Assembly (NCBI RefSeq): GCF_003236365.1
Contig: NZ_POTZ01000007.1
Location: forward strand, 1 to 40,815
Direction: 5' to 3'
Source: Streptomyces sp. NTH33
Lineage (GTDB): Bacteria > Actinomycetota > Actinomycetes > Streptomycetales > Streptomycetaceae
Length of the DNA: 40,815 nt
The position numbers were made by a program, and so were the translations under genes. The notes under the pieces were generated by a model that saw only the letters and a list, made by a program, of their open reading frames with translations, made no database searches and had not been told where the DNA came from. Shown here piece after piece: positions 1 through 29,999 of this stretch (its first letter is position 1; each line of letters begins with the position of its first letter).

Positions 1-220
1 GCGGGTGCCACATCGCTGCGCGATGTGCAAGCGAACACCTCCGCTGCGCGGAGGTGTTGCGCTCCCGCTCCGCGGGAGCGCTGGCGGGTGGCTGCGCCAC
101 CCGCGCAACCCCGATGCTACGCATCGGGGTTGACGCTCCGTCCGCTGCGCTCCCGGAGCGGCGAGACTGCGTCTCGCTACTGGGCTTCCGCTGCGCTGCA
201 GCCCGGGCCGGCGGATCCGC
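1..220. other. Streptomyces-type telomere (terminal palindromes)
   Basis: A run of perfect GC-rich hairpins, most with a 3-nt loop, fills this stretch: stems 9-16/20-27, 34-44/48-58, 59-68/72-81, 84-92/96-104, 106-117/121-132 and 161-167/171-177. A longer-looped hairpin pairs 134-140 with 154-160, and GCGGATCCGC at 211-220 is a perfect palindrome. The order, the TGC loops (GCA on the other strand) and the short spacers match what I know of archetypal Streptomyces chromosome and linear-plasmid ends. In replication the 3' overhang folds into such hairpins and is patched by terminal-protein priming. The window starts inside the outermost palindrome (only GCGGGT remains of the usual first element), so about 7-8 terminal bases seem to be missing. 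No gene is credible here; the short reading frames are composition artefacts. Confidence 0.93.
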
Positions 221-448
221 TGCACTCCCCCGCCTGACGGTCCTTCCGGCTGCGCCTCCAGGATTGTTGGGGCCCGCTGATGCAGGCCGGGCTGGCTGCG
301 AGGGTGAGGGGTTGCTCGTTCGTTTCGGGTGCCGGTGTAGTGGGTGCATCAGTTTGATGCAGCATGTAGTGTTGGTGGAAATACGGGACACCCCTCAACC
401 ACCCGATGTGGGCCCAGATGCCCGCGCCTTTCGGAAAAGGGAAAACGC
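221..448. other. Subtelomeric non-coding stretch
   Basis: This lies between the telomeric hairpins and the first gene. I see no convincing reading frame. It becomes less GC-rich toward its right end, as expected for a promoter region, and carries the inverted repeat at 345-361. Confidence 0.5.
345..361. promoter_or_regulatory. Inverted repeat, possible operator
   Basis: TGCATCA-GTT-TGATGCA is a perfect 7-3-7 inverted repeat in a locally AT-richer patch about 90 bases upstream of the start at 449. Its size suits a dimeric helix-turn-helix regulator. It is unlike the GC-rich telomeric hairpins. No binding protein can be named. Confidence 0.35.
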
Positions 449-982
449 ATGTGGAGTGCTCAGGACGTGGCGCGGGATCAGGTCCGGCGTCAGGCGAATG
501 GCCTGGACGTCGCCGCCGTTGCGGAAAAGGTCGCGGAGGCCGCTGTCCGTGAGCGGGAAACCGCGGATCAGTTGAGGGGAAACGGTTCCTTCTACGAGTT
601 CGAGATGGACCGGGAGCGGTTGGCTGTCATTTGGCTGGCCCAGCACGCTGAGTGGCGGCGCGTCAGGGACTTGATGGCTGCAGCCGGTTGGGGCGTGTAC
701 GAGCCGGAACGGGACGCTCAGGGCTCGGTGTGGGCTCGCGAGCGTGAGGAACGGCTTGCTGGTGCTCTTGCGGGACAGGCCGCCTTGGGGGAACGGCAGG
801 GGGAGGAAGCGGATGAGCTGCGGGCGGAGGTCTGGCTGTCCGCCGCGCCCGGTCGGCTGGTCCGGGCGGTGGCCTACCGGGCGGGGCTGCGCCCCTCTCA
901 GGTCCTGGCCGAGCTCGCCGAGCGGATCGTCGTGAGCGAGGACGGCACGGTGTCTGTGCCGCCTTTCACGCCGTCCCTGTGA
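449..982 (+). CDS. Subtelomeric protein of unknown function
   Basis: This encodes 177 residues; I do not recognise a family. The start at ATG 449 is chosen because a purine-rich GGAAAAGGGAAAA lies just upstream; an earlier in-frame ATG at 344 would run through the putative operator. The protein is highly charged and mostly helical in character (many E, R and A). Residues ~135-165 (AYRAGLRPSQVLAELAERIV) could form a small helix-turn-helix-like unit, but this is weak. There are no signal peptide or membrane segments, so it is probably cytoplasmic. It stands 43 bases before the helicase on the same strand and may be co-transcribed with it, which suggests a role linked to telomere or terminal transfer functions. 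That role is inferred from position only. Confidence 0.6.
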   Translation: MWSAQDVARDQVRRQANGLDVAAVAEKVAEAAVRERETADQLRGNGSFYEFEMDRERLAVIWLAQHAEWRRVRDLMAAAGWGVYEPERDAQGSVWAREREERLAGALAGQAALGERQGEEADELRAEVWLSAAPGRLVRAVAYRAGLRPSQVLAELAERIVVSEDGTVSVPPFTPSL

Positions 983-1025
983 TTTCCGAAGCGAGCGGAA
1001 AAGAAGGCAGAGGAGGAGCGGGGAG

Positions 1026-3686
1026 ATGCTGGGTATTCGGCTTCGGGAACACCAGGTGGCCCAGAAAGCGGCTTTCCGTCGGTGGGTGGGATTCCCTGCA
1101 AGATCATCTGTGTCCCCTCAGGGGGCCCGGGGCACGATCGTGTCCGCGACCGGATCGGGGAAGACGATCACCGCCGCTGCGTGTGCACTGGAGTGCTTCC
1201 CGGGCGGACGGATCCTGGTGACCGTTCCGACCCTGGACCTGCTCGTGCAGACCGCCCAGGCGTGGCGGCTGGTGGGCCACCGGGCGTCGATGGTGGCGGT
1301 GTGCTCGCTGGAGAACGACCCCGTGCTCAACTCGCTGGGGGTACGCACCACCACCAACCCCATCCAGCTCGCGCTGTGGGCCGGGAAGGGACCGATGGTC
1401 GTGTTCGCCACGTACGCCTCGCTGGTGGACCGCGAGGACATCGACGCACCCGAGGGCAAGGGCAAGGTTCGCGGGCCGCTGGAGGCCGCCCTGGCGGGCG
1501 GGGAGCGCCTGTACGGGCAGCAGATGAGCGGGTTCGACCTCGCGATCGTGGACGAAGCCCACGGTACGGCGGGTGATCTCGGGCGGCCGTGGGCGGCGAT
1601 CCACGACAACCAGCGGATCCCGGCGGATTTCCGGCTGTACCTGACCGCGACCCCGCGCATCCTCGCCGCGCCCCGCCCGCAGAAGGGCACGGACGGGAAG
1701 GAGCTGGAGATCGCGAGCATGGCCGACGACCCGGACGGGACGTACGGCGCGTGGCTGGCCGAGCTCGGGCTCTCGGAGGCGATCGAGCGGGGCATCCTCG
1801 CCGGATTCGAAATCGACGTCCTGGAGATCCACGACCCCTCCCCCGTCCTCGGGGAATCGGAGGAGGCGCAGCGGGGCCGACGCCTCGCCTTGCTGCAGAC
1901 CGCACTCTTGGAACACGCAGCGGCGTACAACCTGCGTACGGTCATGACGTTCCACCAGAAGGTGGAAGAAGCAGCCGCGTTCGCGGACAAGCTGCCCCAG
2001 ACCGCAGCCGAGCTGTACGCAGGCGACGCCACCGGCGACGACCTGGCGGCCGCGGACCGGCTCCCCGCCTCGTCGATCGATGCCGACTTCTACGAGCTGG
2101 AGGCCGGCCGCCACGTACCCCCGGACCGGGTGTGGTCGGCGTGGCTGTGCGGCGACCACCTCGTCACCGAACGGCGCGAGGTGCTGCGGCAGTTCGCAGG
2201 CGGCATCGACGTCGGCAACCGGCGCGTGCACCGGGCGTTCCTGGCGAGCTGCCGCGTGCTCGGGGAAGGCGTGGACATCACCGGCGAGCGGGGCGTGGAA
2301 GCCGTCTGCTTCGCCGACACCCGCACCTCCCAGGTCGAGATCGTGCAGAACATCGGCCGGGCGCTGCGGCCCAACCGGGACGGCACCACGAAGGTCGCCC
2401 GGATCATCGTGCCCGTCTTCCTCCAGCCCGGCGAGGACCCTACCGACATGGTCGCCTCTTCCTCGTATGCGGGACTGGTCGCTGTGCTCCAAGGCCTGCG
2501 CTCGCACGATGAACGACTCGTGGAACAGCTCGCCTCCCGCGCCCTCACCAGCGGACAGCGCACAGTGCACGTCCGGCGCGACAAGGACGGGCGGATCATC
2601 GGCGCCGGCGGCGACGGGGAGGACCAGGAACAGGACGACACCCAGGCCGCCGCCGAATCGGCCCTGCTGCACTTCTCCACACCGCGCGATGCGGCCACCA
2701 TCGCCGCGTTCCTGCGCACGCGGGTCTACCGGCCGGAGTCCCTGGTGTGGCTCGAGGGCTACCAGGCCCTCATCCGCTGGCGAGCCGAGAACGGCATCAC
2801 CGGCCTGCACGTCGTCCCGTATGACGTTGAGACCGAGGTCGGCGTCACGAAGGACTTTCCGCTGGGCAGGTGGGTGCACCAGCAGAGAAAGGCCCTGCGG
2901 GCGGGGGAGCTGGAACCGCGCCGCAAGGAGCTGCTGGACGCGCCGGAGGCCGGGATGGTGTGGGAGCCGGGCGAGGAGGCCTGGGAGACCAAGCTCGCCG
3001 CGCTGCGCTCCTACCGGCGGGCCACCGGGCACCTCGCCCCCCGGCAGGATGCGGTCTGGGGCGAGGACGGGGCGATGGTGCCCATCGGGCAGCACATGGC
3101 CAATCTGCGCCGCAAGGGCGGCCTTGGGAAGGGCCCGGAGCGGGCCCGGGTGCGCGCGCAGCAGCTGGCGGCGATCGACCCGGACTGGAACTGCCCCTGG
3201 CCCCTGGACTGGCAGCGCCACTACCGCGTGCTCGCGGACCTGGTCGACGCCGACGGCAGCCTGCCCGACATCGCCCCCGGCGTGCTGATGGACGGCGATG
3301 ACATCGGGCGGTGGCTTCAGCGGCAGAAGCAGCCGGGCACCTGGACGCAGTTGTCCACCGAGCAGCAGGAACGGTTGGAGAGGCTGGGCGTCAAGCCCGC
3401 CCCGGCGCCGCCTGGCGCCCCGGCAGCCGGGCGTGCGGCGAAAGGCACCAGCAAGGCGCAGCAGGCATTCCAGCGCGGCCTGGCAGCCCTCGCGCAGTGG
3501 GTGGAACGGGAGGGCTCGTACCGGCCGGTGCCAAGGGGTCACAGCGAACAGATCACGGTCGACGGCGAGACGGAGCCGGTGACCGTGAAGCTGGGCGTAT
3601 GGGTCTCGAACACCCGCGCGAGGCGCGACAAGCTCACCCAGGAGCAGCGGGCCGCACTCGCCGAGCTCGGGGTGGGGTGGACGTAG
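1026..3686 (+). CDS. ttrA: TtrA-like telomere-proximal DEAD/DEAH helicase
   Basis: An 886-residue superfamily 2 helicase. Motif I/Walker A is ATGSGKT at residues 41-47, motif II is DEAH at 175-178, motif III is TATPR at 206-210, and motif VI is in QNIGRALRPN. The C-terminal third carries helicase-associated repeats rich in W and R (for example EAWETKLAALRSYRRATGHL), as in subtelomeric helicases of Streptomyces. Such genes, called ttrA, lie next to many Streptomyces telomeres and have been tied to conjugal transfer of linear replicons. The start at ATG 1026 follows an AGGAGGAG-like ribosome site. Codon use is ordinary for Streptomyces. A second copy lacking its N-terminus lies at 8341-10737. 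The family assignment is strong; the ttrA name rests on position and domain make-up. Confidence 0.85.
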   Translation: MLGIRLREHQVAQKAAFRRWVGFPARSSVSPQGARGTIVSATGSGKTITAAACALECFPGGRILVTVPTLDLLVQTAQAWRLVGHRASMVAVCSLENDPVLNSLGVRTTTNPIQLALWAGKGPMVVFATYASLVDREDIDAPEGKGKVRGPLEAALAGGERLYGQQMSGFDLAIVDEAHGTAGDLGRPWAAIHDNQRIPADFRLYLTATPRILAAPRPQKGTDGKELEIASMADDPDGTYGAWLAELGLSEAIERGILAGFEIDVLEIHDPSPVLGESEEAQRGRRLALLQTALLEHAAAYNLRTVMTFHQKVEEAAAFADKLPQTAAELYAGDATGDDLAAADRLPASSIDADFYELEAGRHVPPDRVWSAWLCGDHLVTERREVLRQFAGGIDVGNRRVHRAFLASCRVLGEGVDITGERGVEAVCFADTRTSQVEIVQNIGRALRPNRDGTTKVARIIVPVFLQPGEDPTDMVASSSYAGLVAVLQGLRSHDERLVEQLASRALTSGQRTVHVRRDKDGRIIGAGGDGEDQEQDDTQAAAESALLHFSTPRDAATIAAFLRTRVYRPESLVWLEGYQALIRWRAENGITGLHVVPYDVETEVGVTKDFPLGRWVHQQRKALRAGELEPRRKELLDAPEAGMVWEPGEEAWETKLAALRSYRRATGHLAPRQDAVWGEDGAMVPIGQHMANLRRKGGLGKGPERARVRAQQLAAIDPDWNCPWPLDWQRHYRVLADLVDADGSLPDIAPGVLMDGDDIGRWLQRQKQPGTWTQLSTEQQERLERLGVKPAPAPPGAPAAGRAAKGTSKAQQAFQRGLAALAQWVEREGSYRPVPRGHSEQITVDGETEPVTVKLGVWVSNTRARRDKLTQEQRAALAELGVGWT

Positions 3687-3846
3687 CAGCCTTGTCGTCG
3701 GCGCTCCTCGGGCTCTCGTAGCCGACGCCGGCTGGTGCTGTCTCGCGAATACCGGAACCGGCGGTCAAGAGTGGGCAGCGTGGGAGAACTGACGCTATGG
3801 GCCGCAGGATGCCGGCCCTGTCGGCTGGCCGCTTGGGGAGGCGGAC

Positions 3847-4404
3847 GTGGGGCAGATCGAGCAAGGGCTGGAGCACGCGTTACGCACCCGGCCCGTTCCC
3901 TCAAGCACCGAGGCCCGTCTGCGGTTTCTGCTGGCGACACACCGGCATTCCACCCGGAGGGTGGCCGCCGTGCTGGGCGTGTCACAGCGCACCGTGCAGC
4001 GGTGGGTGACACAGAAGCCCGGAGCGCGGCGCCCGCCGGGCCCGCTGCAGGTGGGGGCGATCGAGGAAGCCGTCCTGGCCCGGTGGCAGCCCCGGATACG
4101 GGCCCGCCGGCGTGCCCAGGCCGAAGCGGAGGGCTTCGTCTTCCACACCAGGGCGCGGTTCGGGTTCGCCGCACCGGCAGGGTCCTCGGACGATCCGCGG
4201 GTGCGGTGGATCACCCAGTACCTGCCGGGAGAGGTCGCCCGGGAGTTGTTCGCCGCCCGGGACGCCGGCGCGGGCGAGCAGCAGCAGTTGGCGATCCTGG
4301 CCCGCGCGCTGGGGCACGCATATTTCCGCGACGGGGGCCGACGCGCCCACGGACTGCACATCGCCTTCAGTGACCTCGAGTTCGCCGACTTCTCGATCGG
4401 ATGA
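3847..4404 (+). CDS. tpg: Terminal protein Tpg
   Basis: This 185-residue protein matches the size and motif order of the terminal proteins that cap and prime Streptomyces telomeres. It begins MGQIEQGLEHA, has a helix-turn-helix at about 36-55 (VAAVLGVSQRTVQRWV), then RWQPRIRARRRAQ (79-91), TRARFGF (101-107), and ends with FRDGGRRAHGL (160-170). The GTG start follows GGGAGG at a good distance. Tpg is covalently attached to DNA 5' ends and normally works with Tap, whose gene usually lies directly upstream in an operon. Here the upstream gene is the helicase and no tap is visible. At the position I align with the priming Thr of the archetypal protein (about residue 114), this protein has Ser-Ser (113-114). 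Its place 4 kb from the telomere fits its function. Confidence 0.88.
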   Translation: MGQIEQGLEHALRTRPVPSSTEARLRFLLATHRHSTRRVAAVLGVSQRTVQRWVTQKPGARRPPGPLQVGAIEEAVLARWQPRIRARRRAQAEAEGFVFHTRARFGFAAPAGSSDDPRVRWITQYLPGEVARELFAARDAGAGEQQQLAILARALGHAYFRDGGRRAHGLHIAFSDLEFADFSIG

Positions 4405-4415
4405 GCCCGCCCTTT

Positions 4416-4437
4416 CGATCGGGCACATGGCCGATCG
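4416..4437. terminator. Possible bidirectional terminator between convergent genes
   Basis: CGATCGG at 4416-4422 pairs with CCGATCG at 4431-4437 across an 8-nt loop. It lies between the ends of tpg (+) and the third transposon gene (-). There is no U-run, which is common in Streptomyces. This is modest support only. Confidence 0.4.
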
Positions 4438-4452
4438 GACGCGTCAGGGCGT

Positions 4453-5553
4453 TCAGCGCCGCGAGGGCCTAGCGCGTACGGCCAGCATCGCTTCGTACCT
4501 GTTGGCCTCCTGCCGCTCGCGCCAGTCCCACTCCACACGGCCGGCCGGGCCTTGACGGCGGGCCGCGGGCGGCTGGGGCGGGCGCAGCCTGGCCGTCTCC
4601 GCCACGCGCAGCAGGAGTGCACGGTTGCCTGGCGTGGCGAGCAGTTCCTGGTCCTGCCCGGATACGAGTCGGGCGAAGCAGGCCGCGGCCCGCAGGAAGA
4701 CGCCCGCCCAGGGCGGTACGGGGTAGGCGGCGCAGCCGTCGGTGTAGCGGGCGCGGTCGTGCAGGGCGAGCGTGGCCGCGTCGTCGTCGTAGTCGCGGGG
4801 GCGGGCGGTAGCGAGTTGCTGGAGGGACGCGCCGGTGAACAATGCGGCGGCAATGGTCGCGGCCAGGCGAGGGTGCGCACTCGCCCCGTGAAGCCGGTGG
4901 GCGACTCGCTGGGCGGTGTGTGGGGTGAGAGGCGCGGGCGGCGGACGGTGCCGCCAGACGATCGGCGGCGGCGTGCACACGGCGGCGCAGGGGGCAGGGC
5001 TGTCGTAGGAGACGAGGCGGTCCAGTGCAGGCAGGGTGAGCCATCGGCTGGCTGGCCGGGCCGGTTGGTCCGCAGGCAGGGGTTCGGCGCAGGGCGTGCC
5101 GTAGTAGTGGCGGCGGGCGGCCTGGAAGTCGGTGGTGATGGTGTGGTCGGCCGTCTGCAGGGCCTGGTGCAGGGCGGCGGGCAGGTGGGGGCGGTGACAG
5201 ACCAGGGTCAGGTGGATCCCGGTGAGTGTGCGCAGTTTCAGGAGGCGCATCGCGCGGCGGGCGGTGAGGCGGTGCGCGCGCAGCACGGTCAGCCGAGTGA
5301 CGGGAAGGGCAGTGATCCAAGCGGTGGCGGCTTCCCAGGCAGGCTGACGACCGCTGGGGAAGCGGCCGGGGAGCAGGGACGGTTTGCCCAGGGCGGCGAG
5401 AAGGTCGTGGGCGAGGCCGGTCTCGCTGGTGGTACCCGGGCCGGGGTGCAGGGTGATCCGGCCGGACGGCAAGTGGTGGGCTGCCAGGGCGGTGTGCGTG
5501 TAGAGCGCGTCGTCGTGGCGGTCGATGACGACGGTGACGGGCGGCAATGGCAT
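4453..5553 (-). CDS. Third gene of the Mu/Tn7-like transposon, unknown function
   Basis: This encodes 366 residues. ATG 5553 lies 5 bases after the ATPase stop, so translation is probably coupled to it; I see no clear ribosome site. I recognise no named family. Residues ~45-150 resemble an AAA+ core that has lost its nucleotide motifs: RLTVLRAHRLTARRAMRLL (87-105) sits where ATPases of this kind have VDEAHRL, and GIHLTLVCHR (112-121) looks like a sensor-1 strand. Residues ~228-292 (LFTGASLQQLATARPRDYD...YPVPPWAGVFLRA) recall the core of tyrosine recombinases, but the catalytic Arg of the G-L-R motif is replaced (GAS). Both resemblances are by eye. No TniQ-type zinc cysteine pairs are seen. 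Position suggests a target-selection or regulatory role in transposition. Confidence 0.65.
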   Translation of the reverse strand: MPLPPVTVVIDRHDDALYTHTALAAHHLPSGRITLHPGPGTTSETGLAHDLLAALGKPSLLPGRFPSGRQPAWEAATAWITALPVTRLTVLRAHRLTARRAMRLLKLRTLTGIHLTLVCHRPHLPAALHQALQTADHTITTDFQAARRHYYGTPCAEPLPADQPARPASRWLTLPALDRLVSYDSPAPCAAVCTPPPIVWRHRPPPAPLTPHTAQRVAHRLHGASAHPRLAATIAAALFTGASLQQLATARPRDYDDDAATLALHDRARYTDGCAAYPVPPWAGVFLRAAACFARLVSGQDQELLATPGNRALLLRVAETARLRPPQPPAARRQGPAGRVEWDWRERQEANRYEAMLAVRARPSRR

Positions 5554-5558
5554 GGTGG

Positions 5559-6302
5559 TCAGGCGAGGCGGCTGAAGGCCCAGCGCAACAGCTCCTGGTC
5601 CACGCGGGCACGGCCGGTACGGGCCAGGGCGGTACGAGCGTGGGCGGTCAGCTGGGCCCAGGCGCGGAAGTTGCCGTGCGTGGCGTGGCTGTCGGCGAAC
5701 GTGATGTCGTCGGGGTCGGCGTCGGCCCAGACCGGGTGGAACAGCGGGATCACCTCGAGGACCTCGCTGGGGGTGAGGCGGGTGAACTGCTGCCAGATGA
5801 AGACGCGGGAGGAGAGCATCGGTTCGCGGCGCAGCACGGTGTGGCAGCCCGCGCCGCCGACGAAGATGATGGCGAGCTGGGTTGAGGGTTCGTCCCACAG
5901 GTAGCGGAAGTATTCGAACGCCTCCCCGTTGAGCCACTGGGCCTCGTCGACGAGGAAGGTGCGGGGACGTTCGGCCAGGGCGGTCTTCAGCAGGCGGTCG
6001 AACTCGCTGGGATGGCGCGGTGGTTCGCCGGCCAGGTCGAGCGCGGTGAACAGTTCGTAGCGCACCGCGCGGGCGGTGGGCCGGGCCCGGAAGGTGATCT
6101 TGCGGACGTCCTCGCCGGGTTCGAGTTCGCGCAGGCAGGTGTTGACGGCGAGGGTCTTGCCGAAGCCGGCACCACCGTGGATGCACATCATGGCCCGCGC
6201 GGCGACCGTGTCGGTAATGTTCTCCCGGGCCGCCAGCAGCGCGCGGGTGGTGACCACGCAGGCGTCGGGCAGGTCGACGTACTGGTAGGTGGCCGCGGTC
6301 AC
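5559..6302 (-). CDS. AAA+ transposition ATPase (TnsC/TniB-like)
   Basis: A 247-residue AAA+ ATPase. Walker A is GGAGFGKT (43-50), Walker B is TFLVDEAQ (115-122) and the sensor-1 strand is IIFVGGAG (about 145-152). Its length and motif order fit the ATP-dependent target-capture proteins of Mu-, Tn7- and Tn5053-type transposons (MuB, TnsC, TniB), which activate the partner DDE transposase and prevent self-insertion. The GTG start at 6302 overlaps the transposase stop (GTGA), so the two are translationally coupled and made in concert. It could equally be described as IstB-like, but the partner transposase has a Mu/TnsB layout rather than an IS21 one. No sign of inactivation is seen. Confidence 0.85.
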   Translation of the reverse strand: MTAATYQYVDLPDACVVTTRALLAARENITDTVAARAMMCIHGGAGFGKTLAVNTCLRELEPGEDVRKITFRARPTARAVRYELFTALDLAGEPPRHPSEFDRLLKTALAERPRTFLVDEAQWLNGEAFEYFRYLWDEPSTQLAIIFVGGAGCHTVLRREPMLSSRVFIWQQFTRLTPSEVLEVIPLFHPVWADADPDDITFADSHATHGNFRAWAQLTAHARTALARTGRARVDQELLRWAFSRLA

Positions 6303-8023
6303 GAGGCGCCTCCGTCTTCATCGGTGGTGAGACGTGTAGCCCGCCCGTCCGGGCCGTCCGGGGCAAAAGCGCCATCACTCCCGGACGGGACCGGGGCGGG
6401 CCGGCCTGGCGTGGTCAGCGCGGTCAGGGAAGCAGGGGTACGCCACCCGGCCGGAGGCGCGGCGGGCGGGATCAGATCGGGCAGCGCCCACTCGGCCGCA
6501 TCCTTCAGCCGCTCCTGATCGGCGGCCCGGTCGGCCTCGGCCGCGCTCAACGAGCCCAGCCGCTCGGGCGGCTTGGCCTCGGTGACCGCGGCGTACCGAG
6601 TGCGGGTGTGCTCGGAGGCGGCAGACAAGGCGCGGGCCAGGCGCCGCTTCTCGGCATCCTTGCGCCGCCGGTGTGCCCTGCGCTGCTCGGGCGTGGCCTC
6701 ATCCGAAGGGTGCGCCGGCCCCAGGTACTTTCCGGACGCAGCCTCGAACACCTCGATCTCGTGGTCGTGGTGCGGGATGTAGCGCAGGCGGACCTTCGTC
6801 CCCGCATCCGCGCCGCCGTGCATCCACTCCCCCACGTAATACCGATTCCTCCAGCGCACCCCGCTGGTGGTGAGCGTGCGCATACGTCCGTCGTCGGCGA
6901 GCGTGAACCGGTACAGCAGGCCCGGGTCCACATCCTCGATCGGAGTGGGATCGTCCCGCCACGCCTCAAGCGGCGTACGCCCGCCAAGGGCCTGCGAGGT
7001 GTGCTCTGCGTTCCACCACGTGACCCACTGAAGCAGCAGGCGGACGAACTCGGCGAACGGCAGCGGCTCCGCGGCGATGGCATGCTTGCCGCGGGCGCCG
7101 GGGCGCAGCCGGGTGGACGGGGCGTGGGTGTAGCGGGGCAGCGAGGCGAAGAGCATCTTCTCCGCGCACCTGTTCAAGTTCTCGATCGATCCCTTCAGAT
7201 CCGGCCGATACGGCGGGAGCGGCTGCACTGGCACGGCGAAGTGACCCAAAGCGTCGGCGACGGTGGCCGAGAGGAAATCGGCGCCGCGGTCGATGCGCAC
7301 CAGCGAGGGCAGGCCGCCGATCGGCCCGTACGGGCCGGTGGGGTCCTCATTGCGCGAGAGCGCAATCCGCAAGCTGGCGAGGATCGCGTCTCTGGAGGGC
7401 TGGTGCGGGGTGACCGCCGCGCCCGGAATCGTCTCGGTGGCACAGTCGATGAACCACGTCACCCACGGGAACACCAACTCGCCGTCCAGCAACACCTCGA
7501 CCGGCACATGCTTGTGATCCGCCTCCCAGCAGGCATTCCGCCACTGACGCGGACGCCGCAGATGCACATCATGACGGCGCCTGGCGCGCTCCCCACCGAC
7601 AAGGGCCGCACGCTGCCCGGCGTTCAGATCCAGACGAATCGCCCGGTGCAGCGTCGCCAACGACGGCACCGGATCCACCTCACGTCCCTCGGCGACGGCT
7701 GCGGCATACTCGCCCACCAGCTCCCGGTGCAGCGCGGCCGCGTTCCCGCACCACGCCGCAAGACGTCCATGCAACTCGTCCGTGATCCGAAACCGCTGGC
7801 GCCCGGCCGGCTCCATGCGCCCCTGGCGGCCATCGTCCAGCCATCGCCACACCGTCCGCAGCGACACCCCCGCCGACCTGGCGACCAGCTGCGCGTGCTC
7901 CGTGGTCAACTCCCCGCGCCCGTCCAGCGCCAGCAACCGTGCGAGCGCCTGCTCACGCCCCAGCGCCCGCGACACCAGCGAGACCTCCTCGGCCCCTGCC
8001 CCGTTCTCACCCGGCCCGGCCAT
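6299..8023 (-). CDS. DD35E transposase (Mu/TnsB-like integrase catalytic domain)
   Basis: A 574-residue transposase. The N-terminus (about 35-65) holds a helix-turn-helix (AQLVARSAGVSLRTVWRWL) expected to bind the transposon ends. The RNase H-like catalytic core has Asp169 in WEADHK, Asp245 in VRIDRGADF and Glu281 in KGSIENLNR, giving exact DD35E spacing, so the enzyme should be active. A Mu-type beta-barrel region follows (about 360-450), then a basic, poorly ordered tail (RRAHRRRKDAEKRR) that may contact the ATPase. ATG 8023 is preceded by GGGGG at a suitable distance. It is the first gene of a three-gene operon reading away from the repeats at 8217-8319, the expected layout of a Tn5053/Tn7-like element. 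Confidence 0.88.
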   Translation of the reverse strand: MAGPGENGAGAEEVSLVSRALGREQALARLLALDGRGELTTEHAQLVARSAGVSLRTVWRWLDDGRQGRMEPAGRQRFRITDELHGRLAAWCGNAAALHRELVGEYAAAVAEGREVDPVPSLATLHRAIRLDLNAGQRAALVGGERARRRHDVHLRRPRQWRNACWEADHKHVPVEVLLDGELVFPWVTWFIDCATETIPGAAVTPHQPSRDAILASLRIALSRNEDPTGPYGPIGGLPSLVRIDRGADFLSATVADALGHFAVPVQPLPPYRPDLKGSIENLNRCAEKMLFASLPRYTHAPSTRLRPGARGKHAIAAEPLPFAEFVRLLLQWVTWWNAEHTSQALGGRTPLEAWRDDPTPIEDVDPGLLYRFTLADDGRMRTLTTSGVRWRNRYYVGEWMHGGADAGTKVRLRYIPHHDHEIEVFEAASGKYLGPAHPSDEATPEQRRAHRRRKDAEKRRLARALSAASEHTRTRYAAVTEAKPPERLGSLSAAEADRAADQERLKDAAEWALPDLIPPAAPPAGWRTPASLTALTTPGRPAPVPSGSDGAFAPDGPDGRATRLTTDEDGGAS

Positions 8024-8216
8024 GACGTACCCCCTGGCACCGACGCCGCGTACCGGCGCACATCAAGCACGTTCCCCGTCAACCCCCAGACACAGTCCGG
8101 CAGTTCACACGATCCGGGACAGACAAACCAATCCTGGAAACACGCGGCAAGCCGAGCGCTATACTCCCCCACCGCTCCGGAATCTGCACCACACCGACCA
8201 GCGGACACTCATCCCC
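8024..8216. other. Upstream region of the transposase operon
   Basis: This stretch between the transposase start and the end repeats holds no credible gene. It is markedly less GC-rich than its surroundings and probably contains the transposase promoter, though I cannot place the -35 and -10 boxes with confidence. Confidence 0.4.
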
Positions 8217-8340
8217 GTGTCACCAACAGCGCATCACCCCGATGACACCACCCGCTGCATCACCCCAGACCAGACGCCCGCAGCCACCCAGTGACACCCA
8301 CCGCAGAACCAGTGACACCCTCATTCAGATTCGCACCCCC
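8217..8340. mobile_element. Right end of the Mu/Tn7-like transposon with transposase-binding repeats
   Basis: Short repeats of one core occur here: GTGTCACC at 8217, ATGACACC at 8242, GTGACACC at 8291 and GTGACACC at 8312, the last two within a repeated CCAGTGACACCC and 21 bases apart. GCATCACCCC also occurs twice (8231, 8257). Such arrays are the transposase-binding sites of Tn7- and Tn5053-like ends. Helicase-homologous sequence resumes exactly at 8341, so the element ends at or a few bases before that point (a CA dinucleotide at 8333-8334 followed by five C may be end plus flank). I found no matching left end near 3690-4450. Confidence 0.7.
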
Positions 8341-10737
8341 ATGGTGGCGGTGTGCTCGCTGGAGAACGACCCCGTGCTGAACGAGCTGGGGGTGCGCACC
8401 ACCACCAACCCGATCCAGCTCGCCCTGTGGGCCGGGCACGGGCCGGTCATCGTGTTCGCCACGTACGCCTCTCTCGTGGACCGCGAGGACTTCGATGACC
8501 CGATGGGTCAGGGGCGCGTTCGCGGGCCGCTGGAGGCCGCTCTGGCGGGTGGAGAGCGCCTGTACGGGCAGCGGATGGACGGTTTTTCGCTCGCCATCAT
8601 CGATGAGGCCCACTCAACCGCAGGCGATCTTGGCAGGCCATGGGCGGCGATCCACGACAACGCCCGCATCCCCGCCGACTTCCGGCTCTATCTCACTGCC
8701 ACCCCACGCATCCTGGCTTCCCCCCGGCCGCAGAAAGTCGCGGACAGCGAGGAACTCGAGATCGCGTCAATGGGCCAGGTCTCGGAAACCTACGGGCCCT
8801 GGCTTGCCGAGCTCGGGCTCTCGGAGGCGATCGAGCGCGAGATCCTCGCCGGGTTCGAGATCGACGTCCTGGAGATCCGCGACCCCTCCCCCGTCCTCGG
8901 GGAATCGGAGGAAGCACAGCGAGGCCGGCGCCTCGCTCTGCTGCAGACGGCGCTCCTGGAGCACGCCGCAAGGTGGAACCTGCGCACCGTCATGACGTTC
9001 CACCAGAAGGTGGAAGAGGCCGCCGTGTTCGCGGAGAAACTGCCCCAGACGGCTGCGGAGCTGTACATCAACGACGCCTCCCACGACGACCTGGCGGCCG
9101 CGGACCGGCTCCCCGCATCGTCAATCGACGCGGAGTTCTACGAGCTGGAGGCCGGACGCCACGTACCCCCGGACCGGGTGTGGTCGGCGTGGCTGTGCGG
9201 CGACCACCTCGTGTCCGAGCGGCGCGAGGTCCTGCGCCAGTTCGCCAACGGCATCGACGCGGCCGGCCGCCGAGTCCACCGCGCCTTCCTCGCCAGCGTT
9301 CGCGTCCTCGGGGAAGGCGTGGACATCACCGGCGAACGGGGAGTCGAGGCCGTCTGCTTCGCCGACACCCGCGGCTCGCAGGTAGAGATCGTGCAGAACA
9401 TCGGCCGCGCGCTCCGCCTCAACAAGGACGGCTCCACCAAAGTCGCGCGGATCATCGTGCCGGTGTTCCTGGAGCCCGGCGAGGACCCGACCGACATGGT
9501 CGCCAGCGCCTCGTTCCGCCCCCTTGTAGCCGTCCTCCAGGGCCTGCGCAGTCATGACGAACGACTCGTCGAGCAGCTCGCCTCCCGCGCGCTCACCAGC
9601 GGCAAGCGCAAGGTACACATCCGGCGCGATGAGGAAGGACGGATCGTCGAGGCCGGCGGCGCGGTGGGCGCGGACCAGGAGCAGGACGACACCGACGGTG
9701 CGGTCGAGTCGGCGCTGCTGCACTTCTCCTCCCCCAGGGACGCGGCGACCATCGCGGCCTTCCTGCGCACGCGGGTGTACCGGCCGGAGTCCCTGGTGTG
9801 GCTGGAGGGCTACCAGGCCCTGCTGCGCTGGCGTGCGGAGAACGAGATCACCGGGCTCTACGCCGTCCCCTACGACGTTGAGGTCGAAGTCGGGGCGACG
9901 AAGGCGTTTCCACTTGGGCGATGGGTCCACCAGCAGCGCAAAGCGCTGCGGGCGGGCGAGCTGGAGGAGCGGCGCAAGACCCTGCTGGACGCGCCGGAGG
10001 CCGGCATGGTCTGGGAGCCGGGCGAAGAGGCGTGGGAGACCAAGCTCGCCGCGCTGCGCTCCTACCGGCAGGCCACAGGCCACCTCGCCCCCCGGCAGGA
10101 CGCCGTCTGGGGTGAGAGCGAAGCCGAGGGCCTCGTCCCGGTCGGCCAGCACATGGCCAACCTCCGCCGGAAAGGCGGCCTCGGGAAGGACCCCGAGCGC
10201 GCCGCGGTGCGGTCCGCGCAGTTGACCGCCATCGATGAGGACTGGGACTGCCCGTGGCCGCTCGACTGGCAACGGCATTACCGCGTCCTCGCCGACCTCG
10301 TCGACGCCGACGGCCACCTTCCCGACATCGCACCTGGCGTGACCTTCGACGGCGACGACATCGGACGATGGCTCCAGCGGCAGACCCAGCCGACCGCCTG
10401 GGCGCAGCTGTCGAGCGAGCAGCAGGAGCGGCTGTCAAAGCTGGGCTTGAAGCCCGTTGAGGTTCCGTCTCCGGCCCCGAAGGCCAAGCGCTCGGCAAAG
10501 CCGAGCAAGGCGCAGCAGGCATTCCAGCGCGGCCTGGCGGCCCTCGCGCAGTGGGTCGAGAGGGAGGGCCAGCGGTCGGTCCCGCGTGGCCACAGCGAAG
10601 AGATCACGGTCGACGGCGAGGCGGAGCCGATGCTCGTGAAGCTGGGCGTATGGATCTCCAACACCAAGCAGCGCCGCGGCAAACTCACACAGGAACAGTG
10701 CGACGCACTGCGGAAGCTGGGCATCGACTGGATCTGA
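8341..10737 (+). pseudogene. 5'-truncated second TtrA-like helicase
   Basis: From ATG 8341 the product (798 codons) aligns with residues 89-886 of the helicase at 1026 and is similar along its whole length, with small substitutions and few indels. Motif II (DEAH in IIDEAHSTAG), TATPR and QNIGRALRLN are kept, as are the C-terminal helicase-associated repeats. The first 88 residues, including Walker A, are missing and replaced by the transposon end. An in-frame ATG at 8242 would add 33 unrelated residues read from the transposon. No ribosome site precedes 8341. A protein without Walker A cannot be a normal ATPase, so I call it a pseudogene. The rest of the frame is open, which suggests recent loss or selection on the remainder. 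Confidence 0.85.
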
Positions 10738-10784
10738 CGGTCGTCGGCGAGGACCCTCTCGTTTGGCAATGATCCGAGGCTGGG

Positions 10785-11363
10785 TCAGGGGCGCGGGGGC
10801 GGGGTGGTGAGGTACGGAGCGAGTTGGGCTTCAAGGTCGGCGATGCGTTTGTCCATGAAGCGGTTGTTCTGGCGGGCGCTGGTCAGTCGTTCTTGGATCT
10901 GCTGGTTGTCCTGGGTGAGTTGTCGTACGTGCTGCTTCAGCGTGGTGTTCTCCGTGACGATGCGCTGAAGTGAGCCTTCGGGGAGATCGTGTTCGAGGTC
11001 GCGGATCTTGCCGAGGAGTTCTGCGATGCGGGTGCGCTGGGTGCGGATTTCGCGCTGGGCTTGGGTGAGTGCGTCTTCGGCGTTGAGTGCACGTTCCTTC
11101 CAGGCGGACTGTGCGCGGCTGCCGCTGTTGGAGACTCCGGGATGGGGTCTGCTTGCTCGGTTGGCCTGCTCGATCAGGGCTCTGGCCTGCTGGTTTTGAT
11201 AGAGGAAGGTGCGTGAGACGCGGGCGGTACGGGCAAGGGCTGCGACGGTGACAGGCGTATGGTCGCGTGCTGCGCCCGCCAGGGCGGTCTGGAGGCGTTC
11301 GAGCATCTCCTGGGTGGCTTGGCGGCGGGCTTGGACGGCCGCGTCGGTGCGGGAACTGCTCAT
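10785..11363 (-). CDS. TnpC-like accessory protein of a Tn554-type module (DUF6262-like)
   Basis: A 192-residue protein. The N-terminal half has an HTH-like segment (VAALARTARVSRTFLYQN). A long coiled coil follows, with ALNAEDALTQAQREIRTQRT in its first part and DLEAQLAPYL near the C-terminus. This layout is that of the third protein of Tn554-like three-gene recombinase modules (TnpA, TnpB, TnpC), which assists two tyrosine recombinases in integration. ATG 11363 overlaps the stop of the preceding tnpB fragment (ATGA). Its partners are broken or absent, so it is probably a leftover. It ends 48 bases from the helicase pseudogene, convergent to it. Confidence 0.75.
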   Translation of the reverse strand: MSSSRTDAAVQARRQATQEMLERLQTALAGAARDHTPVTVAALARTARVSRTFLYQNQQARALIEQANRASRPHPGVSNSGSRAQSAWKERALNAEDALTQAQREIRTQRTRIAELLGKIRDLEHDLPEGSLQRIVTENTTLKQHVRQLTQDNQQIQERLTSARQNNRFMDKRIADLEAQLAPYLTTPPPRP

Positions 11364-11803
11364 GGCTGTCCTGTGGCGTGGTCGGGGGCCTGCAGTGCGG
11401 CAAGGTCTCGGGCGCGGAAGGCGGTGCTCCAGGTGCGGTGGAGGTAGTCCTGGGGGCGCCGCAGGTCCAGGGTGAGGGCTTCGTCGAGGATGCCGAGGGC
11501 GGCCAGGGCCTGCTCGAGTCCTTTGATGGCCTGGGCGGTGGGCTCGAAGACGGTGTGGAGGTAGTCGGCGGTTGCGTCGTCTGGGGCGTTCTCGGCGATG
11601 GAGCGCCACTGTTCGGCTTTGCGTCGCCAGTAGAGGAGGTCTGCGCCGGAGAGGACGAAGTTGTCGCAGTTCTCGCAGTCGAGTTTCCAGGGGCAGGATC
11701 CGCCGTCGACGACGGGTTGGTAGGTGCAGAATCCCCCGTCGGCGGGGGTACTGCGGCGGGAGAGGTCCAGGGCCAGGGCGAGGGCTGTCTCGCGGTCTAT
11801 GAA
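11360..11803 (-). pseudogene. C-terminal fragment of a Tn554-type TnpB recombinase
   Basis: About 147 codons remain, beginning FIDRETALALALDL at the boundary of the IS5-type element (11804). The fragment carries the cysteine-rich tail of these recombinases (GFCTYQPV, GGSCPWKLDCENCDNF) and the helix LLYWRRKAEQWRSIAEN. The catalytic R-H-R-Y part and the whole of tnpA are missing. They are not found on the far side of the IS element either, so insertion was accompanied or followed by deletion. The stop overlaps the tnpC start, so the original operon order is kept. Confidence 0.75.
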
Positions 11804-11826
11804 GCTGTTGTCTTTTCGATCTTGAG
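11804..11826 (+). repeat. Left inverted repeat of the IS5-type element
   Basis: This 23-bp repeat matches 13443-13465 in inverted orientation at 20 positions. It cuts into the tnpB recombinase frame. Confidence 0.75.
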
Positions 11827-11887
11827 CGGTGGCGGTCGAACGCGGGTTCCCGGTTGGGTGATCCTGCCGTGGCCAGCGCATGAAGAC

Positions 11888-11941
11888 GGGGCCTCCTGAA
11901 CAGCTCGTGGGTGTCGAATCCATAGAGCAACAGGAGGCCCC
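11888..11941 (+). promoter_or_regulatory. Hairpin sequestering the transposase ribosome-binding site
   Basis: GGGGCCTCCTG (11888-11898) pairs perfectly with CAGGAGGCCCC (11931-11941) across a 32-nt loop. The 3' arm contains the AGGAGG ribosome site of the transposase. Transcripts entering from outside would fold this way and block translation, while a start inside the loop would leave the site free. This is a known strategy of insertion sequences to stay silent when read through. Confidence 0.7.
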
Positions 11942-11942
11942 G

Positions 11943-12863
11943 ATGCCGCAGTCTTCCGTGCCGATGGCCGGGCAGTCCAACTCGGCTGCTCCATCGTGTG
12001 ATTGCCTCGCGCACGTGTACGGCAACGCGGCCGACGGGCCGCCCGAGCGGCAGCGCCGGTATCCGACGGACATGACGGACGCGGAGTGGGCCGAGGTCCG
12101 GCCGCTGCTGCCGGTGCCGGGCTGGATGCAAGGCCGGGGCGGCCGGCCCGAGGGGTACTGCCACCGGACGATGCTGGATGCGATCCGCTATCTCGTGGAC
12201 AACGGAATCAAATGGCGGGCCATGCCCGCCGACTTCCCGCCGTGGGACCGGGTGTACGCATTCTTCCGCCGCTGGCGCGACCACACCCTGATCAAGGAGT
12301 TCCACGACCGGCTGCGCGCGCAGGTCCGCACGATGCTGGGGCGGGATGCGGAGCCGACGGCCGGGGTGATCGACTCGCAGTCCGTCAAGGCGGACGCCGT
12401 CGTCGGCGCGGACAGCCGCGGCTTCGACGGCGGCAAACTGGTCAACGGCCGCAAGCGGCACGTCGTGGTCGACACCCTTGGCCTGCTGCTGGGCGTCATG
12501 GTCACCGCCGCGGACATCGGCGACCGCACCGCCGCCCAGGACCTGCTGCGGCAGGTCGCCGACACCCACCACCGCCTCGCCCTCATCTGGGCCGACGGCG
12601 GCTACACCGGCAACCTCGTCGAGCACTGCCTGGCCAGGCTCGCCCTGGTCCTGGCGATCGTCAAGCGCAGCGACGACGTCAAGGGGTTCGTGGTGCTGCC
12701 CAAGCGGTGGATCGTCGAGCGCCTCTTCGCCCACCTGATGCGCAGTCGCCGCCTGGTCCGCGACGTCGAACGCCGCACCACCAGCGCCGAGGCGATGGTC
12801 TACTGGTCGATGACCCTGCTCATGACCCGCCGCCTGGCCCGGACACGCCCGCAGCCAGCGTGA
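11943..12863 (+). CDS. IS5-family DDE transposase
   Basis: A 306-residue transposase. It opens the conserved core with YPTDMTDAEWAEVRPLLP (40-57), followed by GRPEGYCHRTMLDAIRYLV. The catalytic triad is Asp144 (GVIDSQSVK), Asp218 (IWADGGYTG) and Glu259 (RWIVERLFAHLMRSRRL); the Y-[12]-W-like tail SAEAMVYWSMTLLMTRRLA is also present. All key residues are kept, so it should be functional. ATG 11943 is chosen over upstream starts because AGGAGG (11932-11937) lies directly before it. Its last 44 bases overlap the end of the antisense gene at 12820. Confidence 0.88.
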   Translation: MPQSSVPMAGQSNSAAPSCDCLAHVYGNAADGPPERQRRYPTDMTDAEWAEVRPLLPVPGWMQGRGGRPEGYCHRTMLDAIRYLVDNGIKWRAMPADFPPWDRVYAFFRRWRDHTLIKEFHDRLRAQVRTMLGRDAEPTAGVIDSQSVKADAVVGADSRGFDGGKLVNGRKRHVVVDTLGLLLGVMVTAADIGDRTAAQDLLRQVADTHHRLALIWADGGYTGNLVEHCLARLALVLAIVKRSDDVKGFVVLPKRWIVERLFAHLMRSRRLVRDVERRTTSAEAMVYWSMTLLMTRRLARTRPQPA

Positions 12864-20616: not shown

Positions 20617-21846
20617 ATGGCCGAAGGGCTGCTCGCCGGCGTCACGGTACTTGACATGACGAACGTCCTGGCCGGTCCCTTCGCCGGTTATCAGCTGGCT
20701 CTGATGGGGGCCGACGTCATCAAGGTCGAGGTGCCCGGGACAGGTGACCTCGCCCGCCAGCTCGGCGCCGATCCGGACCTGAGCCGGGAGAACCTGGGTG
20801 TCTCCTTCCTCGCGCAGAACGCGGGCAAGCGCTCGGTCACCGTGAACCTCAAGAGCGAGGCCGGAAAGGAGGTCTTCACCCGCCTGCTCGACCGGGCGGA
20901 CGTCCTGCTTGAGAACTTCCGCCCCGGTGTGCTTGAGCGTCTCGGCTTCGGCAGGCAGCGGCTCCACGAGCTGAAGCCCGGTCTGGTCTACTGCGCCGTC
21001 TCCGGCTTCGGGGCGACCGGGCCCCTGGCCCAGCGTCCGGCCTACGACCAGGTCATCCAGGGCATGTCCGGGATCATGAGCATCACCGGGACACCGGAAT
21101 CCGCCCCCCTGCGGGTCGGGTTCCCGGTCTGCGACAGCTTCGGCGGGCTGGCCGCGGCGTTCGCGGTCGCCTCCGCACTGCTGCGGCAGCGCCGTACGGG
21201 AGAAGGTGCCTACCTCGACGTCTCCATGCTCGACGCCGCACTGACGGCAATGGGCTGGGTCGTCTCGGACCATCTCGTCGCGGGCCGGGAGCCTGGGCCG
21301 ATGGGCAACGAGAACGTCACGTCAGCCCCCTCAGGGACGTTCCGGACGGCGGACGGCGCCCTCAACATCGCGGCCAACAAGCAGGAACAGTTCGAGACCT
21401 TGTGCCGGGTCCTGGAGAGGGAGGAACTCCGCACCGACCCGCGGTTCGCTACCAGGGACGACCGTAAGCGCAACCGGCACGCCCTCCGCGCCGAACTGGA
21501 GATCACGCTCAAGAGCCGCACCGCCCAGGAATGGGACGAGATCCTGCTGCCCACCGGTGTGCCCGCCGCCCCGGTCGTCACCGTGCCCCAGGCGCTGCGC
21601 TCCGCGCAAATCGCCCACCGGGGTCTGGTCACCGAGCTCCCCCTGCCGCAGGCCGGCACAGAGGCCGACGAGCAGGCCCGCCAGGACCCGCTCAGGGTCG
21701 TCGGCCTGCCGACGCAGATCGACGGTGCCGCAGTCCGGCCGGCCGGACCACCTCCCCTGCTCGGCGAGCACACCGCCGAGGTGCTGCGCGACCTCGGCTA
21801 CGACGACGCGGGCATCGCCCGGCTCCGCGAGGAGAGGGCCGTATGA
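20617..21846 (+). CDS. CaiB/BaiF family CoA-transferase (class III)
   Basis: A 409-residue class III CoA-transferase. It shows the family opening LLAGVTVLDMTNVLAGPFAGYQL (interrupted here as LLAGVTVLDMTN and VLAGPFAGYQ), GADVIKVEVPG, NAGKRSVTVNLK, and the catalytic Asp173 in GFPVCDSFGG, which forms the acyl and CoA anhydride and thioester intermediates. It starts at ATG 20617 behind GAGGAG. Its stop overlaps the next start (ATGA), so it is coupled to a citrate-synthase-fold lyase and an aconitase. This suggests it activates a hydroxy-dicarboxylic or tricarboxylic acid (malate, citramalate or citrate) for cleavage by the lyase. The donor could be succinyl-CoA or acetyl-CoA; the substrate is inferred. 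Confidence 0.82.
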   Translation: MAEGLLAGVTVLDMTNVLAGPFAGYQLALMGADVIKVEVPGTGDLARQLGADPDLSRENLGVSFLAQNAGKRSVTVNLKSEAGKEVFTRLLDRADVLLENFRPGVLERLGFGRQRLHELKPGLVYCAVSGFGATGPLAQRPAYDQVIQGMSGIMSITGTPESAPLRVGFPVCDSFGGLAAAFAVASALLRQRRTGEGAYLDVSMLDAALTAMGWVVSDHLVAGREPGPMGNENVTSAPSGTFRTADGALNIAANKQEQFETLCRVLEREELRTDPRFATRDDRKRNRHALRAELEITLKSRTAQEWDEILLPTGVPAAPVVTVPQALRSAQIAHRGLVTELPLPQAGTEADEQARQDPLRVVGLPTQIDGAAVRPAGPPPLLGEHTAEVLRDLGYDDAGIARLREERAV

Positions 21847-28832: not shown

Positions 28833-28850
28833 AGAGGCCTCCCCATCAGG

Positions 28851-29999
28851 ATGAAGATCACCATAGAGAACCTTCAGCTGCGGTACGGCGGCGTCGCTGC
28901 GATCAAGAACATGGATCTTGAGATCGGTGACCGTGAGTCCGTCGTGCTGCTCGGCAAGTCCGGCTGTGGCAAGACGAGCACGATGCGGTGCATCGCGGGG
29001 CTGGAGGAACCGACGGCGGGACGTATCACCATCGGCGACACCGTGGTGTTCGACGCCGAGGCCGGGATCAACCTCCCGCCGAACAAGCGCAACGTGGGCA
29101 TGGTCTTTCAGTCATACGCCGTCTGGCCGCACATGACGGTGTTCGAGAACGTCGCCTATTCCCTGAAACTGCAGAAGGTCGCCAAGGCCGAGATCAAGCA
29201 GCGGGTGGCCGAGGCCCTGGAGCTCGTCGGCCTGGAAAGCTTCGCGGACCGTGGGGCGAGCCTGCTGTCCGGTGGCCAGATGCAGCGGGTCGCGCTCGCC
29301 CGGAGCCTGGTCATGCGGCCTTCGGTGCTGCTGCTCGACGAGCCGTTGTCCAACCTGGACGCGCGGCTGCGCGATCGGCTCCGGGTCGAACTGCGCGAGA
29401 TCCAGCTCCGGCTGGGCCTGACCACTGTCTATGTGACCCACGACCAGCTCGAGGCGTTCGCACTGGCCGATCGCATCGCGCTCATGCAGGACGGCGTGAT
29501 CGTGCAGATGGACGCACCCGACGCGATGTACAACTCGCCGGCGAGCGCCTCCATCGCGCACTTCCTCGGTGTGGCGAACGTGCTCGACGTCGACGTCGCC
29601 AGCACCGGGACCGGGACCTGGACCCTGGCCGGCAGCGGCCTGCCGATCACGTCGACGGCTCCCGAACCCGGCCGCGGGAAGGGCGGGCTCAAGGCGTGCG
29701 TGCACAGCGAGGACGTGCGCCTGTCCGCGGAGCGGCCGGCCGGCCGCAACGTGTATCCCGCCACCGTCCTCGTGGCCGGCTTTCAGGGCGCGAGCACACG
29801 CTACGCGGTGAGCATCGATGGGAAGCTCGAGCTCGACGTACTCGCCTCGGCCCGCGGCAACACCCGGTTCGAGGTCGGAGCGCGGGTGTGGGTCTCGATC
29901 GATCCCGCCGCGGTCCAGGTCCTGCCGGAGACGGCTGTGGCTCCCGCGGCTCCCGGTGCGACGCGGCCCGCCGCGACCCTGGAAAGAGTGGGCTCATGA
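28851..29999 (+). CDS. ABC transporter ATPase (iron/putrescine type, FbpC-like)
   Basis: A 382-residue ATPase. Walker A is GKSGCGKT (35-42), the Q loop is VGMVFQSYAVWPHMTV, the signature is LLSGGQMQRVALARSLVM, Walker B is VLLLDEPLSNLD and the switch His is in VYVTHDQLEA. The C-terminal third is a TOBE/MOP-type regulatory domain (about 270-365). It begins 18 bases after mdlC and overlaps the permease start (ATGA). With the fused permease and lipoprotein it forms a complete importer. Family members carry Fe(III), thiamine, phosphonates or small carboxylates; the setting suggests the organic acid used by mdlC. Confidence 0.88.
   Translation: MKITIENLQLRYGGVAAIKNMDLEIGDRESVVLLGKSGCGKTSTMRCIAGLEEPTAGRITIGDTVVFDAEAGINLPPNKRNVGMVFQSYAVWPHMTVFENVAYSLKLQKVAKAEIKQRVAEALELVGLESFADRGASLLSGGQMQRVALARSLVMRPSVLLLDEPLSNLDARLRDRLRVELREIQLRLGLTTVYVTHDQLEAFALADRIALMQDGVIVQMDAPDAMYNSPASASIAHFLGVANVLDVDVASTGTGTWTLAGSGLPITSTAPEPGRGKGGLKACVHSEDVRLSAERPAGRNVYPATVLVAGFQGASTRYAVSIDGKLELDVLASARGNTRFEVGARVWVSIDPAAVQVLPETAVAPAAPGATRPAATLERVGS

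Follow-up and report, generated by a model that had tools for sequence, protein, structure and literature searches.

A Streptomyces contig that begins in an archetypal telomere, 8 nt short of its probable end, and carries a lone Ser-114 Tpg homologue beside TniA/TniB-type genes

The stretch of DNA analysed here (hereafter the window) spans contig C978 (40815 bases) from end to end, and the two share the same base 1; the contig belongs to a draft assembly of 7.86 Mb in 1200 contigs. The window opens with an array of hairpins, followed on the plus strand by a small gene, a terminal helicase gene and a lone homologue of the terminal protein Tpg. Three genes on the minus strand, two of them resembling transposition genes, face this Tpg homologue and are followed by a second helicase copy (Table 1). 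Conservation extends beyond the palindromes in two blocks, block B (211-301, comprising most of hairpins B1 and B2) and block C. We found no Rfam families in 1-12000, no tRNAs in the window, and neither sigma-70 promoters nor terminators in 1-1100.

Table 1. Features of the window. Pairing is given as cells paired in aligned telomeres; "slid" is the paired fraction with displaced partners.
Feature	Position	Strand	Loop or domains	Remarks
Palindrome I, final 5 nt (GCGGG)	1..5			first 8 nt (CCCGCGGA in relatives) absent
Palindrome II	9..27		TGC (3' strand GCA)	434/434 paired; TGC in 55/56 telomeres
Palindrome III	34..58		TGC (3' strand GCA)	610/615 paired; TGC in 54/56
Palindrome IV	59..81		TCC (3' strand GGA)	535/554 paired; TCC in 51/56
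Palindrome V	84..104		TGC	474/483 paired
Palindrome VI	106..132		TAC here (TGC in 40/56 telomeres)	652/668 paired
Palindrome VII	134..160		long, TCC-GC-TGC-GC-TCC, exact in 36/56	351/388 paired
Palindrome VIII	161..177		TGC; commonest in relatives TTC	329/381 paired
Palindrome IX	182..204		long; cap right arm TGC not TCC	239/280 paired, slid 0.20
Hairpin B1	209..235		long, TCC-GC-TGC-AC-TCC	outer stem 370/392 paired, 80 telomeres; slid 0.52
Hairpin B2	238..266		cap TCC-GGC-TGC-GCC-TCC	outer stem 409/508 paired, slid 0.20
Block C	309..402	+		no conserved fold found
177-aa protein	449..982	+	no Pfam match	between telomere and helicase
Terminal helicase, ttrA type	1026..3686	+	ResIII/DEAD and helicase-associated domains	
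Lone Tpg-like terminal protein, 185 aa	3847..4404	+		Ser at T114 position; no tap adjacent
Conserved protein	4453..5562	-	no known family	convergent with Tpg-like gene
Putative TniB-type AAA ATPase	5559..6302	-	AAA_22	
Mu/TniA-type transposase	6299..8023	-	Mu-transpos_C, weak rve	
Second helicase copy	8242..10737	+		84% identical to first from residue 82 on

An earlier note on this DNA had counted at least six perfect short-loop hairpins and a longer-looped one in the first 180 bases, and the count is exact: at arms of at least 7 bp and a loop of 3 nt there are six (arms of 8, 11, 10, 9, 12 and 7 bp), and a further hairpin at 134-160 has 7-bp arms and a 13-nt loop. Dinucleotide-preserving shuffles of 1-180 (n = 2000) contained no short-loop hairpin in 1920 cases, one in 80 and never two, and among 2011 overlapping 180-bp tiles from position 420 onward 1913 had none, 98 had one and none had more. 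Folding the 3' strand, a check that the note had suggested, gives -89.4 kcal/mol for 1-220 as opposed to -60.5 +/- 3.2 for 200 shuffles (z = -9.0), none of which folds as well. The range of 1-220 that the note assigned to the telomere includes a further hairpin at 182-204, which it left unnamed, and is too short, given that hairpins of the same kind at 209-235 and 238-266 carry the array to about 266. Another candidate, B3 (around 272-292), was unsupported in the register tested (199/543 cells paired, versus 0.31 for slid partners).

Are these stems conserved as structures? For palindromes II to VIII we counted pairing in 56 telomeres with the full palindromic block, after removal of identical sequences, and compared it with pairing when partners were slid by 1-3 columns. 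Stems pair in 86-100% of cells (90-100% for II-VII) and slid partners in 22-39%; note that helices were defined on the window sequence, which favours true over slid partners. Double-sided pair changes, from II to VIII, number 4/8, 6/11, 5/10, 7/9, 9/12, 5/7 and 7/7, compared to at most 1, 2 and 2 in slid versions of II-IV and up to 3, 6, 4 and 7 in slid versions of V-VIII. Since compensatory changes also turn up when V, VI, VIII and IX are slid, it is the pairing fraction rather than the number of changes that carries the argument there. For II-IV, stem structure is conserved beyond the slid-partner level by double changes too. The loops of the outer palindromes are near-invariant across the 56 telomeres.

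The hairpins at 134-160, 182-204, 209-235 and 238-266 follow a common long-loop pattern, in which two TCC triplets enclose a stem of 2-3 bp with TGC or TTC between its arms, a design that reads GGA-GC-GCA-GC-GGA on the 3' strand; the copies at 182-204 and 209-235 each deviate at one position. A search that required both TCC arms to be exact and the outer stem to measure at least 4 detected this unit in 78 of 93 telomeres, a set freed of identical sequences, and neither in the other 40295 bases of the window nor in 180000 inner bases of Streptomyces loci. The GGA/GGA internal loop is a motif of centromeric DNA. We infer a compact closure of the long loops: the two GGA arms would face each other in a symmetric GGA/GGA internal loop, followed by 2-3 base pairs, and a GCA-type triloop containing a sheared G-A pair would cap the whole. 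The longer-looped hairpin of the earlier note is present at 134-160, but its loop is probably not open. The inner stems are almost invariant (156/160 and 236/240 cells), and covariation therefore neither supports nor refutes them. Sheared GCA loops are described for telomere palindromes in PMC4513846 and PMC7205883, as are loops of 3-4 nt in PMC8743542. For the long-loop unit itself the literature searched, with older papers on palindromes outside its scope, yielded no account, and we do not claim novelty.

Alignment to known Streptomyces telomeres, likewise proposed in the earlier note, indicates that the window very probably starts at the end of a replicon. Bases 4-1000 match positions 1-988 of the record of a linear plasmid (NZ_CP113912.1) at 91.2% identity, and identity to the start of S. 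leeuwenhoekii plasmid NZ_LN831789.1 is 80.1%. In all, 143 plasmid records match (142 from Streptomyces, one from Kitasatospora), and 38 of the 40 of these 143 matches that were listed lie no more than ~220 bases from the end of their record. In SLP2 of S. lividans, four pieces match window 1-10584 (34% covered), and 8 extra nt lie beyond base 1. Across the genus, 138 of 392 genomes, its own included, match bases 1-420 at E <= 0.001.

A scan with the palindrome II 19-mer returned at least 120 loci, the matches listed comprising 70 from Streptomycetaceae and 50 from outside the family, as judged from record titles. Of the 70 listed Streptomycetaceae matches, 65 sit at a contig end and extend beyond the window's base 1 by no more than 17 nt, so that the note's remark that assemblies often lack such ends needs correcting: they are common in drafts. 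Twenty-two of the 70 carry exactly CCCGCGGA and then end; 35 stop short of the outer 8 nt, 11 of those 35 at the window's own base. Note that some telomeres represent one end fetched twice (e.g. L004/L090, L008/L109, L014/L083), and that these duplicates were kept both in the contig-end count for the 70 matches and in the block C-helicase spacing count below. That relatives end exactly at CCCGCGGA implies that 8 nt are absent here, leaving 5 of the 13 nt of palindrome I in the window. In typical telomeres palindrome I pairs with part of palindrome IV, according to PMC4513846, and reverse-complementing window 64-76 (CCCGCTCCGCGGG) gives exactly CCCGCGGAGCGGG, a sequence that finishes in the five bases of window 1-5. 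The absent bases would hence read CCCGCGGA. Judged from the relatives' ends and the complement at 64-76, the note was right that only the outermost bases are gone.

Several peculiarities of related ends deserve mention. Extra outer bases in L065, L068, L080, L091 and L122 (short) and in L119 and L123 (longer) are an inverted copy of the telomere and give the impression that the 3' end folded back during sequencing or assembly; L103 has 183 extra outer bases. At L151:781-848 (NZ_JAEAMR010000019.1) two telomere tips meet head to head within a contig, either through telomere fusion or as an assembly artefact. Outside the family, the palindrome II 19-mer occurs mostly in beta-proteobacteria (Ideonella, Rubrivivax, Acidovorax etc. 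among the 50 listed loci), often with AGC after it and TT before it, as an interspersed palindrome without other telomere blocks.

Taken together, sequence, palindrome order, loops, position at the contig end and the presence of tap and tpg in the genome leave us almost certain that an archetypal Streptomyces telomere occupies window 1 to ~300 and lacks its outermost 8 nt. As such it is an ordinary telomere of a known kind. It shares with the SLP2/S. lividans/S. coelicolor type the order of the palindromes (as the note had expected of a Streptomyces end), GCA-type loops, complementarity of palindrome IV to the expected palindrome I, a ttrA-type helicase near the end, and tap and tpg in the genome. 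It differs by the 8 nt absent from the assembly, by its stem sequences, and by having G rather than A at position 7 (a state also seen in L118).

A question compatible with the telomere reading is whether the end belongs to a linear plasmid rather than to the chromosome, which we regard as a real possibility without favouring it. The closest annotated relatives found are plasmid ends and similar arms are common on plasmids; however, the collection searched contained plasmids only, so that plasmid matches cannot discriminate, and chromosome-sized contigs carry such ends as well (G092, G228, G376, S. scabiei and S. coeruleorubidus). Moreover, the best plasmid match listed for 20-40.8 kb covers 15% of that region, where the genes are metabolic. 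Within it, bases 28000-31000 had no match at E <= 1e-50 in 40 other genomes. The right end of the contig falls in sequence with three other partial copies (72-83%) in the genome, a repeat that possibly caused the contig to break there. We did not find a second copy of the telomere end in the draft, and hence saw no terminal inverted repeat, although repeats may be collapsed; the next-best match (C622, E 8e-4) looks like coding sequence and was rejected as a second telomere.

Might the array instead be an internal fossil, that is, an old end that fusion or circularisation has moved into the interior of a replicon, with the contig broken at the hairpins? The head-to-head tips of L151 provide a precedent of sorts, and the truncated second helicase (8242-10737) shows that this arm has been rebuilt. 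We nevertheless consider a fossil very unlikely: no contig of the draft continues base 1, and the 65 listed relatives at contig ends mostly stop within a few bases of one place. An unrelated array of hairpins, for instance an intergenic palindromic repeat, can be dismissed as an explanation for practical purposes: the 19-mer alone is indeed unspecific, with 50 of 120 listed loci not from Streptomycetaceae, but block B or C accompanies it, among the matches listed, in 61 of 70 Streptomycetaceae loci and 0 of 50 others, and bases 1-1000 align to linear-plasmid ends.

Read as an archetypal telomere, the window fits the mechanism known as end patching, which PMC4513846 describes together with a 3' overhang of ~300 nt and binding of Tap to palindromes II and III. 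Once bidirectional replication has finished, ~300 nt of the 3' strand, which in the window is the minus strand, would remain single-stranded and fold into a chain of hairpins; Tap would bind palindromes II and III as well as Tpg; and Tpg, with Tap, would make a 13-nt protein-linked primer over palindrome I, to be extended by polymerase. That the hairpins stop near 266-300 agrees with the reported length of the overhang. A canonical tpg adjoins tap on another contig of the same genome (C724), each 88% identical to the SAP1 protein used as query (NCBIfam telomere_Tpg and telomere_Tap); the Tap match begins at residue 132, near the end of this 3798-base contig. This pair could serve the window's end in trans, and the window's copy of the telomere presumably works.

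Further inward, block C is present in 78 of the telomeres compared, 61 of which show a helicase match (several others are too short to show one). In eight of these 61, block C is found 564-1040 bases inward and the helicase is shifted along with it, the distance from block C to the helicase start being 562-765 in seven and 1320 in one. For the other 53 the median distance is 766, with 37 within 483-910 and a range of 88 to 4524. Because block C shifts with the helicase, it appears to be tied more closely to the helicase than to the tip, and the wide spread makes this a tendency rather than a rule. We regard block C as the probable control region for the operon that contains the terminal helicase. 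As for its fold, the inverted repeat TGAGGGG/CCCCTCA was considered as a stem and rejected, RNAalifold predicting no pair across 67 telomeres. The gene for the 177-aa protein is found in eight of the 61 telomeres (window included, one end counted twice).

The helicase is 82% identical to the terminal helicase of SLP2; the name ttrA, suggested by its position and by PMC8743542, is putative. The second copy lacks the Walker A motif, adjoins the Tni module and is, by its sequence, best described as a remnant of another telomeric arm, so the window's arm seems to have been assembled from at least two such arms. Beside this truncated helicase, at 8213-8330, are repeats with GTGACACC/GTGTCACC that resemble transposon-end repeats.

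The product of 3847-4404 is clearly a Tpg homologue (192.4 bits against the curated model NF047541, cut-off 90), but an unusual one: its deoxynucleotidylation site, residue 114, is Ser, and it sits downstream of the helicase rather than of tap, the tap match being on C724. Ser can replace Thr in S. lividans Tpg, possibly with lower efficiency, and linear replication has been examined with four lone Ser-114 tpg copies, of which pFRL1.6 worked, while the other three (SLP2.38, SAP1_11 and pSV2.102) did not and were termed pseudogenes (all from PMC3572947). A gene on the right arm of SLP2, probably tpg(SLP2.38), is 72% identical to 3847-4404 and shares Ser at 114. Some Tpg match at E <= 1e-20 occurs in 275 of the 392 genus genomes. 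Among the matches listed, 39 in 32 genomes are at least 72% identical and the others mostly 45-54%. In the 72% group, Ser occupies position 114 in every member that extends across it, as it does in three remoter copies (35-37%), one of them from SAP1; Thr is found in the genome's own copies on C724 and C789 and also in L157 and L160 (with tap), L135 and L130. A further tpg, 69% identical to SAP1 Tpg, lies at G000:C789:17682-18230, with partial tpg-like pieces near 20917-21225.

If the Ser-114 copies were pseudogenes, we would not expect them to be maintained. Median pairwise dN/dS is 0.185 among 29 full-length members, none with an internal stop (the window is included; partial L054, L186, L188, L199 and L200 and the broken copy L224 were left out). 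It is 0.164 within each of two subclades (18 and 11 members) and compares with 0.213 for six canonical tpg; the highest pair reached 1.03. Low dN/dS and the lack of internal stops thus argue that the clade is maintained: the SLP2.38 copy was reported as a pseudogene in PMC3572947, whereas the window's clade is under purifying selection. Codon use in the clade is atypical (median GC3 0.80 versus 0.935). The broken copy in L224 speaks against maintenance, and constraint does not tell function: the product may equally well be an accessory terminal protein.

We also counted where the copies lie. Restricting the analysis to 35 of the 39 listed matches (two of G234:C1, one of G140:C3 and one fragment of G130 were left out) and then to contigs of at least 140 kb, we obtained 18 placements on 14 contigs, 13 of which (on 10 contigs) lie within 15 kb of an end and read inward, compared to 0.24 expected from random placement. 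Of the other five, three are at a distance of 43-72 kb from an end and two (G007 and G290) in the middle of their contigs, possibly in rotated assemblies. A helicase is directly upstream of the Tpg homologue in at least seven of 34 loci, window included and four at 31-33% identity, a lower bound given flanks of 1.5 kb in most loci.

The genes that face the Tpg homologue are themselves recurrent neighbours. We compared 22 wide loci, with 20 relatives picked from the 32 genomes with listed matches of at least 72%. A homologue of 4453-5562(-) is convergent with tpg in 20 of the 22, broken in four of them (L206, L210, L218 and L219); TniA matches in 18; and TniB matches nearly in full and in one piece in 17, being partial in L205, interrupted in L213 and represented by its end only in L159 (SLP2). 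L211 and L224 had no TniB match, and L224 weakly matches the convergent gene. The convergent protein is 66-87% identical to that of the window in the 16 relatives aligned; it returned no convincing Pfam family and no solved-structure match, and its single-sequence structure prediction has a mean pLDDT of 40.9. The ATPase encoded at 5559-6302 is assigned to the TniB type by analogy, from gene order.

In 14 of the 22 loci a second TniB and a second TniA piece lie beyond, which the window seems to have lost. Four loci with different flanks (L207, L209, L220 and L221) all stop at one point after TGACAC repeats, a sharp shared stop of the kind that a transposon end would produce. The Tni genes resemble Tn5053/Tn7-like (TniA-TniB) transposons in that one operon encodes both a transposase of the Mu/TniA type and an AAA ATPase, and in the sharp outer end of these four relatives. 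They differ in that no left end, no convincing terminal inverted repeat and no target duplication were found, in a third gene without a Pfam family, and in the company of a terminal-protein homologue. In L157 (NZ_CP113912.1, linear plasmid pl_2; 6135-13009), a related TniA/TniB pair faces a Thr-114 tpg that adjoins a tap-sized helix-turn-helix gene.

What might bring these genes together? One scenario, which we put forward as a doubtful idea, is that the lone Ser-114 Tpg homologues are the live partner of an end-dwelling TniA/TniB-type element, either as its target selector or as part of a tamed system of telomere exchange. As a target selector, the terminal-protein homologue would bring the element to the telomere complex; in the other version, the transposition genes would have been tamed for telomere exchange. 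The scenario is weakened by the interruption of partner genes in several relatives and by the reported function of one lone Ser-114 Tpg (pFRL1.6) as a terminal protein (PMC3572947). A rival reading sees in the Tpg and Tni genes nothing more than a piece of a terminal arm, which arm exchange spreads.

The telomere, then, is ordinary, yet it marks the window as a very probable replicon end, seen here together with a probable control region and the genes that come first. The bolder lead may be the Ser-114 Tpg and the Tni-type genes beside it. If the partnership is real, a gene class with members reported as dead copies would be alive and tied to transposition genes, which may be relevant to the fast telomere turnover between Streptomyces replicons reported in PMC7205883.
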